Source: Methylobacterium sp. Leaf123 (GTDB taxonomy: Bacteria > Pseudomonadota > Alphaproteobacteria > Rhizobiales > Beijerinckiaceae). Taken from it: 64,000 nucleotides of DNA. Where the stretch lies: the NCBI RefSeq assembly GCF_001423405.1, contig NZ_LMNS01000001.1, forward strand, positions 501,384 to 565,383, in the 5' to 3' direction. Below the pieces are notes generated by a model, which had not been told where the DNA came from, searched no databases, and saw nothing but the letters and a program-made list of their open reading frames with translations. This document shows, piece by piece, positions 54,379 to 59,622 of this stretch. Positions within the stretch are counted from its first letter, which is position 1. Each line of letters starts with the position of its first letter. A program made the translations under genes and the position numbers.

Positions 54379-55099
54379 GATCGCGGGCGACGCCGCACCC
54401 GGCTTCAGCCTCACGCCGCTGGAGCGGGTCTCGGCGCGGCGCGTCGAGCACGATTGGGCCTGGGCGCAAGATAATGCCGAGGCGATCGACCGCAACTGGG
54501 AGCGCCGGCTGGCGGAGACGCCGGGCCTGTTCGACGGGCCGGTCTACCTCGCCAGCGGCTGCACGATCGCGGACGGGGCCTGCGAGGCGAGCCTGTTCGA
54601 GGTGCGCTACTCACGCTTCCTCGCCTTCCGCGATGCGGGCGTGCCCGACGCGCTGGTGGCCAACGCCTTCGCGGCGATCGTCCCGCACAGCGATGACGGC
54701 GCGGTCCTGCTCGGTGTCATGAGCGACCAAACCGCCAATGCCGGCCAGATCTACTTCCCCTGCGGCACGCCCGATCCCGACGACCTGCGCGACGACGGCA
54801 CGGTCGATCTCGCCGGCAGCGCCGCGCGCGAGCTTCAGGAGGAGACCGGCCTGACGCTTCCCGAGGGAGCGGAGGAGGAATGGGTGCTCCTGCGCGGCGA
54901 CGGCCAACTCGCCTTCCTGCGCCCGGTGCGGTTCGATGGCTCGGCCGAGACGCTGAAGGCGCGTATTGAATCGCATCCCGGCCACGAGGGCGAGCCGGAA
55001 CTCGCCCGCAGCGTCATTGCCCGCTCGCGCTCCGACATCGACGCTGCCCGGATGCCGGGCTTCGTCCAGGCCTATCTCGCGAGCGTCTTCCCGGCCTGA
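54368..55099 (+). CDS. Nudix hydrolase
   Basis: A 243-residue protein from GTG 54368. The Nudix helix AARELQEETGLTL (REx2EExG) is present at ~157-167, but the upstream GX5E part (CGTPDPDDLRDDGTVDLAGS) has extra residues, so the box is degenerate. The N-terminal ~70 residues are an unassigned extension. Substrate unknown. Confidence 0.82.
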   Translation: MSIEIAGDAAPGFSLTPLERVSARRVEHDWAWAQDNAEAIDRNWERRLAETPGLFDGPVYLASGCTIADGACEASLFEVRYSRFLAFRDAGVPDALVANAFAAIVPHSDDGAVLLGVMSDQTANAGQIYFPCGTPDPDDLRDDGTVDLAGSAARELQEETGLTLPEGAEEEWVLLRGDGQLAFLRPVRFDGSAETLKARIESHPGHEGEPELARSVIARSRSDIDAARMPGFVQAYLASVFPA

Positions 55100-55110
55100 A
55101 GGCCCGGCTG

Positions 55111-55437
55111 TTACCGGTAGCCGTAGCGTGATTTGGCCGCCGCGAGCAGGCTCATCGCCTCGCCCTCGCGGCCGGCGGCGCAGGCACCCGCCGCCTTGTC
55201 GAGGTCGGCGCTGAAGCGCGTGCCGACGGCCGCGGACAGATCACCGGTCTTCACGTCGCCGGCGACGATGGCCTGTGTCCGGGCGATGGTCGGGCCGCAA
55301 CCGGTCCCGGTCGGCAGGGTGGTGACAGCCGGTGCCGCGGCGACGGCCGCGACCGGAGGCGGCGCGCTCGATTGGCAGGCAGTCAAGGCGCAGCCGAGGA
55401 GAAGGATGGAGACGGCACGGGGAAGCGGCGCGGGCAC
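55111..55437 (-). CDS. Small lipoprotein
   Basis: A 108-residue protein from GTG 55437. Signal peptide with lipobox LTAC (Cys21) and Ala/Pro/Val-rich linker, then a small domain with two Cys (GTGCGPTIA and GACAAGREGEAMSLL). Anchored in the outer or inner membrane by lipidation. Family unknown. Confidence 0.75.
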   Translation of the reverse strand: MPAPLPRAVSILLLGCALTACQSSAPPPVAAVAAAPAVTTLPTGTGCGPTIARTQAIVAGDVKTGDLSAAVGTRFSADLDKAAGACAAGREGEAMSLLAAAKSRYGYR

Positions 55438-55820
55438 GACGGATCTCTACGGTTGCAAGAGGAGGTTCGCTAAAGCCAAGCTCGGCTGGCGGTTTGTGCC
55501 CTCCGCGCATGGACCGGTCAATTGTCGGAGAGACGCGGCACAGTTTCATTTGCCCGAAGCCGCTGGCGCGGCTTCACGGTGCGAAGAGCGCCGCGCGGAG
55601 CGGGCTTGTCGGGGCGTGAGCCCCGGACAGCATCGAGCGGAGCCGAAGCCTGGGCCCGCCGAGGCGGGCGCCGGCGACGGAGGCCCGCAGAGAACCAGGG
55701 TGATCGCCTTCAAGCGAGACCCTGGCATGTGCTTGTCACGATCCCCGCCAATCGGTACATACCGGCACCCTGGTCTCGTGACGGTCGTCCGGCGAGTCAG
55801 CCTCTTGAGGAGAATCGAGC
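55438..55820. other. Upstream region of the leuA leader
   Basis: 383 bases between the lipoprotein gene and the leader peptide. Only shadow frames are present. The leuA promoter must be here; TTGTCA at about 55733 with TACATA at about 55757 is a possible sigma70 pair. Nothing else is recognised. Confidence 0.4.
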
Positions 55821-55922
55821 GTGGCCCCTGGCCGCCCTGCGCAGACGAACGATGGCGCCGCTCTCGCGGCCGCGTCGTCATGCGCGCTCATTCTCGTAGT
55901 CCTGCTTCTTAGCCGCCCCTGA
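55821..55922 (+). CDS. leuL: Branched-chain leader peptide of leuA (attenuator)
   Basis: Read by hand: GTG 55821 with GAGGAG 8 nt upstream opens a 33-residue peptide ending ALILVVLLLSRP. Codons 23-30 are CTC ATT CTC GTA GTC CTG CTT CTT, so ribosome pausing would sense leucine, isoleucine and valine. The stop TGA at 55920 lies in a GC-rich hairpin zone 119 bp before leuA. This is the classic leader-peptide layout of transcription attenuation; the exact terminator is uncertain. Confidence 0.75.
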   Translation: MAPGRPAQTNDGAALAAASSCALILVVLLLSRP

Positions 55923-56000
55923 GGGCCGTCCGGGCGTGATCGCCTGGGCTCGCAGGGGATGCCGCTCATCAACCGGAAGACAGGTTTTTCCGGCGCCGCT
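55911..56000 (+). promoter_or_regulatory. Candidate attenuator structures upstream of leuA
   Basis: After the leader stop: GTCCGGGCG/CGCCTGGGC forms a stem around TGAT (about 55928-55949). CCCCTG at the leader's end (55916-55921) can instead pair with CAGGGG (about 55952). CCGGAA/TTCCGG (about 55981-56000) encloses a T-run (GGTTTTTCC) that may act as a weak terminator. These mutually exclusive pairings are what attenuation needs; the terminator hairpin is not strong by eye. Confidence 0.45.
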
Positions 56001-56041
56001 CCCACAGTGTCGAGCGCGCCGGCTGCGAGGAACGAAGACCC

Positions 56042-57604
<1,563 letters not shown>

Positions 57605-57627
57605 CCAACGCTCGTCCCACCCAATCC

Positions 57628-57728
57628 CCTCATCCTGAGGTGCCCGCCTTGGCGGGCCTCGAAGGAGGGCTCCAGGGATCGCGAGACTTCTGGAGGCCTC
57701 CTTCGACGCTCCGCACCTCAGGATGAGG
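57628..57728. repeat. Hairpin repeat with 16-bp inverted ends (copy 1)
   Basis: CCTCATCCTGAGGTGC at 57628-57643 is repeated inverted (GCACCTCAGGATGAGG) at 57713-57728; the inner halves also pair (GGGCCTCGAAGGAGG with CCTCCTTCGACGC), so the whole element folds into a long hairpin. This is a known style of REP/MITE-like repeat in Rhizobiales. It lies between leuA and ilvD. Confidence 0.7.
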
Positions 57729-57786
57729 ATGCGTTTTGGAGGATCGGCCTTGCGGCCGATCCGGTTCGAAAAGTCGATCAGCAAAA

Positions 57787-59622
57787 ATGCCCGCTTACCG
57801 CTCCCGCACCACCACCCATGGCCGCAACATGGCCGGCGCCCGCGGCCTTTGGCGCGCCACGGGCATGAAGGATTCAGATTTCGGCAAGCCGATCATCGCG
57901 GTGGTGAACTCGTTCACGCAGTTCGTGCCCGGCCACGTCCATCTGAAGGATCTCGGCCAGCTCGTGGCTCGCGAGATCGAGCAGGCGGGCGGTGTGGCCA
58001 AGGAGTTCAACACCATCGCGGTCGATGACGGCATCGCCATGGGCCATGACGGGATGCTCTACTCGCTGCCATCGCGCGAGCTGATCGCCGACAGCGTCGA
58101 GTACATGGTCAATGCGCATTGCGCCGACGCCATGGTCTGCATCTCGAATTGCGACAAGATCACCCCCGGCATGCTGATGGCGGCGCTCCGCCTCAACATC
58201 CCCGCGGTCTTCGTCTCCGGCGGGCCGATGGAGGCGGGCAAGGTCGTCATGGACGGCGTCACCCGCAAGTTCGACCTCGTCGATGCCATGGTGGCCGCGG
58301 CCGATGACCGGGTCTCGGACGAGGATGTGGCCGTCATCGAGCGCTCGGCCTGCCCGACCTGCGGCTCGTGCTCGGGCATGTTCACGGCCAACTCCATGAA
58401 CTGCCTCACCGAGGCGCTCGGCCTGTCGCTGCCGGGCAACGGCTCGACGCTGGCGACCCATGCCGACCGCAAGCGCCTCTTCGTGGAGGCCGGCCACCTG
58501 ATCGTCGATCTGGCGCGTCGCCACTACGAGCAGGACGATGCCAGCGTGCTGCCGCGCTCGATCGCGACGATGGCCGCCTTCGAGAACGCGATGACGCTCG
58601 ACATCGCCATGGGCGGCTCGACCAACACGGTGCTGCACCTGCTCGCCGCTGCGCATGAGGGCGAGGTGCCCTTCACCATGGCCGATATCGACCGGCTGTC
58701 GCGCCGCGTGCCGGTGCTGTGCAAGGTCGCCCCGGCGGTCGCGAACGTCCACATGGAGGACGTGCACCGGGCCGGCGGCATCATGGGAATCCTGGGCGAA
58801 CTCGACCGCGCCGGCCTGATCGACCGATCCGTCGGCAATGTCGGCTCGGGCACGCTCGGCGCCGCGCTCGACCGCTGGGACGTCAAGAAGACCCAGAGCG
58901 AATCGGTCCAGACCTTCTTCCGCGCCGCGCCCGGCGGCGTGCCGACCCAGGTCGCCTTCAGCCAAGCCTCGCGCTGGGACGAACTCGACCTCGATCGCGA
59001 GGCGGGTGTCATCCGCGCGGCCGAGCATGCCTATTCGAAGGATGGCGGGCTCGCCGTGCTCTACGGCAACCTCGCGGAAGACGGCTGCATCGTGAAGACG
59101 GCCGGGGTCGATGCCTCGATCCTCACCTTCACCGGCACCGCCCACGTCTTCGAGAGCCAGGATGCATCGGTGGATGCCATCCTCAACGGCCGGGTGAAGG
59201 CCGGCGAGGTCGTGCTCATCCGCTACGAGGGCCCCCGCGGCGGCCCCGGCATGCAGGAGATGCTCTATCCGACGAGCTACCTGAAATCGAAGGGCCTCGG
59301 CAAAGCCTGCGCGCTCGTCACCGACGGCCGATTCTCCGGCGGCTCTTCGGGCCTGTCCATCGGCCATGTCTCGCCTGAGGCCGCCGAGGGCGGTCTGATC
59401 GGCCTCGTCGAGCAGGGCGACCGGATCGAGATCGACATCCCGAATCGGCGCATCCACCTCGCGGTGGACGAAGCCGTGCTCGCCGAGCGCCGCGCCGCCC
59501 GCGATGCGGAGGGCTGGCGCCCGGCCGCGCCCCGCAAGCGCAAGGTCAGCACGGCTTTGCGCGCCTATGCCATGCTCGCCACCAGCGCCGCCAAGGGGGC
59601 GGTGAGAAGAATCGAGCCGTAG
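57787..59622 (+). CDS. ilvD: Dihydroxy-acid dehydratase
   Basis: A 611-residue enzyme from ATG 57787, the common step in valine, isoleucine and leucine synthesis. FeS-linked and active-site motifs [51 protein letters not shown] and a C-terminal [23 protein letters not shown] are present. The extra N-terminal frame to 57736 is unlikely. Flanked by hairpin repeats on both sides. Confidence 0.96.

Follow-up and report, generated by a model that had tools for sequence, protein, structure and literature searches.

A conserved leucine-codon leader with a hairpin at its stop codon upstream of leuA in Alphaproteobacteria, a candidate for translational attenuation

Described leaders and the leuA locus of Methylobacterium sp. 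Leaf123

The closest described counterpart of the element reported here is the LEU element, which precedes leuA in Actinobacteria (Seliverstov et al. 2005; PMC1262725). As described there, it has an ORF ahead of the gene in which Leu codons form a run, a base stem that joins this run to the leuA ribosome site, and, further in, inner helices and a pseudoknot. In Streptomyces, according to that paper, mutation of candidate leader codons gave results that did not fit classical attenuation, and the authors prefer a binding protein (PMC1262725). Two further leaders come from the class studied here. The ilv leader of the alphaproteobacterium Caulobacter crescentus (PMC4117421) also controls branched-chain synthesis through a leader peptide, but it belongs to another operon and is described as transcription attenuation, and leuA does not occur in that text. 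The trp leader peTrpL of Sinorhizobium meliloti (PMC10117765), from the same order as our strain, is a translated leader peptide that belongs to a gene for amino-acid synthesis; it differs in serving another amino acid and in being a transcription attenuator that yields a short RNA, and leuA is again absent from the text. In the open-licence literature we found no description of the present element in Alphaproteobacteria; an earlier prediction may exist. Older comparative work on proteobacterial attenuators is said to have been carried out by Vitreschak and colleagues in 2004.

The window analysed is a stretch of 64,000 nt from Methylobacterium sp. Leaf123, and its leuA locus shares several traits with the LEU element as far as the latter is described. 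A leader ORF with a Leu run lies upstream of leuA; a counterpart of the base stem is present statistically, in part of the loci and in no fixed register, and is weak in swaps between nearest relatives; and there are inner helices, with no terminator described for leuA. On the other hand, the phylum is a different one, a pseudoknot is described for the LEU element, the authors of that work propose a binding protein, and the likeness is one of description. Likened by description in this way, the alphaproteobacterial element may work as the LEU element is described to do. The relevant parts of the window are as follows.

55732..55760, + strand: promoter-like CTTGTC-N17-GTACAT (pattern CTTG-N17..21-TACA; weak evidence)
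55807..55812, + strand: GAGGAG, ribosome site of the leader ORF, 8 nt 5' of the GTG (from the sequence)
55821..55922, + strand: leader ORF of 33 codons with GTG start and TGA stop (from the sequence; Leu-rich end conserved)
55887..55910, + strand: codons L I L V V L L L, positions −11 to −4 (conserved residue: Leu)
55891..55899, + strand: predicted locking strand UUCUCGUAG, within Ile-Leu-Val codons (minimum-energy fold of the free RNA)
55916..55958, + strand: conserved hairpin, outer strands 55916–55923 and 55951–55958 (covariation and model matches)
55990..56022, + strand: second hairpin, in the linker (minimum-energy fold; prediction for the window only)
56023..56031, + strand: CUGCGAGGA, holding the leuA ribosome site GAGG (56027–56030); predicted partner of 55891–55899
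56042..57604, + strand: leuA, 2-isopropylmalate synthase (sequence and profile scores)

The leader ORF translates to MAPGRPAQTNDGAALAAASSCALILVVLLLSRP. A reading of the window made from its letters alone (hereafter the sequence-only reading) had described a 33-residue leader with a good ribosome site and a stretch of five Leu, one Ile and two Val in eight codons; both are present, the latter exactly, and the run is followed by Ser-Arg-Pro-stop. From the first base of the stop codon to the leuA start there are 122 nt. The LeuA protein scores above the cut-offs of TIGR00973 (685.5 bits; cut-off 598.7) and NF002087 (866.3 bits; cut-off 729) and is 96, 97 and 96% identical to those of L001–L003 (records of Methylorubrum thiocyanatum and Methylobacterium sp.), a group to which the window probably belongs. 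The promoter-like pattern occurs upstream in 12 of 131 representative loci, compared with a mean of 1.1 and a maximum of 5 after shuffling. A 28-codon ORF at 55959–56045, which overlaps the leuA start, was discarded by eye, its ATG being missing in most of the relatives listed. Downstream, the gene 3' of leuA resembles dihydroxy-acid dehydratase when judged by eye, and an inverted repeat, CCTCATCCTGAGG ... CCTCAGGATGAGG, lies between the two genes at 57620–57730.

The reading that we prefer, with a probability of roughly 0.6, is that of a leucine-specific leader-peptide element most likely acting on leuA translation, i.e. translational attenuation.

Leader codons and the hairpin at the stop codon

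A Leu-rich ORF ending in x-x-Pro-stop was parsed 5' of 79 of the 80 named leuA loci, and LPLPLTRP-stop is visible in the 80th (L020); judged by this recurrence, the leader ORF upstream of leuA is more than a chance occurrence. Codon counts refer to 131 representatives, obtained by thinning 203 sequences at 80% identity. Excluded beforehand were L020 (Pro at −5, which the pattern misses), L138 and L126 (another gene lies in between, and the 'leader' parsed in L126 is false), L145, L079 and L148 (by hand), L152, L153, L156, L161, L167, L183 and L214 (low identity to the window LeuA) and L184 (no start found). One sequence set left out L129 and had the window in place of L001.

Leu occupies codon −4 in all 131 representatives, codon −6 in 126 and codon −5 in 111, the remaining 20 having Arg at −5. 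At −4 the codon is CTT in 127 cases and CTA in four, compared with a CTT share of 5.5% among the Leu codons of the leuA stretches. Ile and Val are absent from codons −12 to −4 in 89 of the 131. Since Leu is invariant at −4 and Ile and Val are mostly missing, a waiting ribosome would report leucine, not all three branched-chain amino acids as the sequence-only reading had supposed; that reading had named loss of the Leu/Ile/Val run in relatives as its own refutation, and such loss is what we found for Ile and Val, but not for Leu. A leader sensing leucine, isoleucine and valine together is thus highly improbable: the one Ile and two Val codons of the window speak for it, as does Ile inside the run at some further loci, such as L046 (NALILRALLLLSRP), but most representatives have neither residue there, and Gly replaces one Val in L001–L005.

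The typical leader end reads CTN CTN CTT ANC NGC CCC TGA, and its letters are better conserved than its residues: codon −3 often encodes Ser, Thr or Ile, and codon −2 often Arg, Ser, Cys or Gly. Conservation of letters rather than residues at these two codons would suit a protein or other factor that binds the RNA, the leader codons counting mainly as RNA sequence; for the actinobacterial LEU element, a binding protein is what its authors favour (PMC1262725). We consider this reading decidedly unlikely here, because −4, −5 and −6 retain Leu even though, at −5 and −6, the spelling of the codon differs between loci, and because the CCCC strand of the hairpin described below is able to change together with its partner.

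For the preferred leucine-specific leader, translation of the predicted ORF is supported by the openness of its frame, which extends over at least 25 codons in 131/131 representatives, as against 47% and 58% for the other two frames; mismatches per codon position in 33 close-relative pairs (87/118/120) show no clear sign of coding upstream of the Leu run. Leaders of amino-acid attenuators are in general short ORFs that precede a synthesis gene, contain a run of codons for the product of its pathway and recur in relatives; the present ORF shows these traits. The proposal that the leader peptide controls leuA, made from the window alone, gains strong support from this conservation, and on comparative grounds the conserved, leucine-specific leader element is real.

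A hairpin begins at the leader stop codon, so that in the window TGA (55920–55922) lies inside its 5' strand. Its commonest strands are CCCCUGAG...CUCAGGGG, and its inner part is variable. RNAalifold predicted 15 pairs, with double changes in 10 of them; when the structure was given by hand, 92.7% of cells paired and double changes occurred in 11/17 pairs, compared with 4.0 after shuffling. In a set of 42 diverse sequences, 93.3% of cells paired, as against 52–54% when the partner was slid by one column, and double changes occurred in 6/11 pairs (3.8 after shuffling; 17 of 500 shuffles reach 6). The stop codon of the 131 representatives is TGA in 117, TAG in eight and TAA in four, with TGG at this place in two, and its changes are matched by the partner strand, e.g. 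CCCCTAGG/TTTAGGGG and CCCCTAAG/CTTAGGGG. The CCCC/GGGG part covaries as well: among 22 loci retrieved later, seven have CCTCTGAG/CTCAGAGG and nine more have CCTCTGAG with a G-U partner, the last leader residue of loci with CCTCTGAG being Leu instead of Pro; in L148, CCCTTAAG faces CTTAAGGG in this part. The covariation indicates that the hairpin is held as a structure at the RNA level. The leader ORF is one half of a conserved RNA element, in which the Leu run is followed by a hairpin with the stop codon in its 5' strand. Rfam 15 gave no match at E up to 1 within positions 55001–58000 of the window and none at the gathering cut-off in 11 loci.

Two variations of the hairpin region may be recorded here. 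TGG stands at the usual stop position in L088, L129, L256, L257 and L259, where the leader would continue into the hairpin. At 55951–55958 the window has CGCAGGGG where its relatives L001–L005 have CTCAGGGG; the change costs one hairpin pair and gives CTCGCA a complement, TGCGAG, at the leuA ribosome site.

A leader peptide with a hairpin at its stop codon looks like a classical attenuator, in which the hairpin would be part of an antiterminator or terminator and RNA polymerase would stop before leuA at high leucine, perhaps via Rho instead of a U run. T tracts are indeed more frequent than in shuffled sequences, both within 12 nt after the hairpin (5/131 versus 1.3) and in the linker (13 versus 8.3), and the hairpin 5' strand pairs with the linker at z −2.5 within G+C blocks. 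Nevertheless, 126 of the 131 hairpins have no T tract within 12 nt, so intrinsic termination was rejected as the general mechanism, and premature transcripts are not to be expected as a rule. Pairing of the hairpin 3' strand with the linker, a candidate alternative structure, is weak (z −2.1 within G+C blocks, −0.8 to −1.4 within kinship blocks). With few T tracts and weak alternative pairing, the intrinsic terminator competing with an antiterminator that defines a classical transcription attenuator was not found as a general feature of the 131 loci, and we regard transcription attenuation as unlikely. The competing hairpins of the sequence-only reading reduce to one conserved hairpin; the competition itself is better seen as one between the leader codons and the leuA ribosome site.

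Leader codons and the leuA ribosome site

When 20 whole leaders were folded, Leu codons paired with the leuA ribosome site in several of them, e.g. L025, L051, L075 and L078. Such complementarity was assessed by swap tests, with partners exchanged between species within blocks of similar G+C or kinship. The leader stretch and the ribosome site matched better than swapped partners within G+C blocks (z −7.2, 0/3000), and leader positions −24 to −4 did so within kinship blocks of 4, 8 and 16 (z −5.4, −6.5 and −7.3; 0/3000 each). Other comparisons in the kinship-block test gave z −0.5 to −4.0, the largest of the controls being the adjoining segment −44 to −24 (z −3.4 to −4.0), which includes the window's own locking strand. 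A longer stretch, −36 to −4, gave z −6.1, −7.2 and −9.4 in blocks of 4, 8 and all (0/3000 each), with controls between −0.2 and −2.8.

Perfect complements of at least 6, 7 and 8 letters are present in 50, 30 and 18 of the 131 loci, compared with 30.5, 12.0 and 4.4 after swapping (0/5000 each); the excess is small at 5 letters (84 versus 73.8), and at 9 letters the counts are 6 versus 1.3. The control leader segment −64 to −44 was also above chance at 6 letters (18 versus 7.9), and another control slightly so at 7. In a later set of 21 loci, two of which had been looked at before, a complement of at least 7 letters occurred in 8, against 14.5% for swapped partners (z −2.9, 13/5000). Swaps between nearest relatives gave a weak result (p 0.012; 69 better, 62 worse), which did not stand out from that of one control (p 0.029). 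Among motifs, CCTTC in the leader goes with GAAGG at the site (27/14/17/73; Fisher p 2.5e-7, uncorrected for kinship). TCCTTC/GAAGGA gave p 1.8e-5, and of eight motif pairs three more lay between 0.01 and 0.05 and three above 0.08, all uncorrected for kinship and number of tests.

Two more specific pairings were rejected. A fixed register of CUUANCNG beside the ribosome site was complementary at 134/545 positions, compared with 137.1 after permutation (109 of the 131 loci); L190 and L191 show this register fully. The hairpin 5' strand paired with the ribosome site no better than swapped partners did, one swap test of this pairing leaving out L040, L042, L079 and L086.

Over the 131 loci, the predicted openness of the leuA ribosome site averages 0.34 in the free RNA. 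Occupying the leader codons raises it to 0.55 (up in 71 loci, down in 6). A ribosome at the stop codon raises it as well, to 0.47, and the values obtained by blocking the hairpin 5' strand or the linker are 0.38 and 0.32. On average, the site is predicted to pair more with native Leu codons than with synonymous ones (0.38 versus 0.18; higher in 75/131). The window is an exception, its native Leu codons pairing less than random synonymous ones (0.29 versus 0.53). Its predicted lock joins UUCUCGUAG to CUGCGAGGA, and the openness of its GAGG is 0.02 in the free RNA, 0.52 with the leader codons occupied and 0.02 with a ribosome at the stop codon; when everything up to the stop is masked, the GAGG site pairs instead with the hairpin 3' strand (0.74). 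The ATT-CTC-GTA codons of the window's clade fall in this predicted locking strand, which would give a reason for them other than sensing. Among the close relatives, occupation of the leader codons opens the site to 0.73, 0.32, 0.69 and 0.46 in L001–L004; in L005 it reaches 0.20, below the 0.42 obtained with a ribosome at the stop codon. From these comparisons, a translational lock formed by the leader's own codons is likely.

Distribution of the element and proposed mechanism

The covariance model R1 matched the window's genome once (E 2.2e-14), 73/385 genomes of the class and 236/297 genomes of the order, two of the latter twice. A broader model, R2, matched 108/385 genomes of the class, one of them with two matches, and across the phylum 72/398, comprising 69 in the class and three outside it with weak matches (E 4e-4 to 6e-3); the E-values of both models are rough, the models having been built from some of the sequences searched. 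There is usually one copy of the element per genome. Of the R1 class matches other than the window's own, 69/72 were fetched.

All of the 136 R1-found loci examined (L083–L218, a subset of all matches that were best-scoring or picked by family) contain a LeuA gene, 128 nearer the window's subfamily and eight nearer another. The latter are L148, L152, L153, L156, L161, L167, L183 and L214, assigned by tblastn in all cases but L152, whose LeuA belongs to TIGR00970 (709.8 bits; cut-off 697.4) and not, like the window's, to TIGR00973. These loci look as if the LeuA gene had been exchanged while its control stayed in place. Predicted leader–site pairings of −12.2 to −16.0 kcal/mol were obtained for five loci with the other subfamily.

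The element is separated from leuA in L138, L126 and L250 by a small gene that looks cupin-like when judged by eye. In L138 and L126 this intervening gene has a ribosome site with 8 letters complementary to the end of the leader; in L138 the 8-letter complementarity to the first gene's own site is present despite a change of the leader codon CTT to CTA. The prediction that the intervening gene is the locked one could be judged in three of the 22 later loci, and it held clearly in L138 and L126, both seen beforehand, with an ambiguous outcome in L250. Family f196 of the same order had no R1 or R2 match among the 16 genomes listed. The seven f196 loci inspected (L233–L239) all encode a LeuA of the other subfamily. 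Their Leu leader is of a different kind (e.g. LLLLGLIGDRRVR-stop), and a different hairpin surrounds its end; this may be a second version of the control described here.

Taken together, the comparison shows a Leu run, a hairpin from the stop codon, leuA downstream in the loci retrieved and a codon stretch complementary to the ribosome site of the first downstream gene. The leader's Leu codons probably have two roles, reporting a lack of leucine and locking the leuA ribosome site. We infer that, when leucine is plentiful, ribosomes would read the leader fast and leave, whereupon the vacated codon stretch would pair with the leuA ribosome site, the hairpin keeping both near, and little leuA would be translated. 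When leucyl-tRNA is scarce, a ribosome would wait on the Leu codons and cover the stretch, and the leuA ribosome site would be freed; the same codons would thus act as sensor and as lock. A wider formulation is more tentative, and we hold it somewhat below even odds: sense codons would be sensor and locking strand throughout the class, whatever the LeuA subfamily or the first gene, and together with the actinobacterial LEU element would represent a general terminator-free form of translational attenuation.

If this is true, a widespread regulatory RNA absent from Rfam 15 would be present in a class whose members include plant symbionts and methanol users, and its mechanism would be one that a single set of reporters can test. 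Pairing of leader codons with the ribosome site ahead of leuA, as proposed in 2005 for Actinobacteria, would then also occur in a distant phylum.
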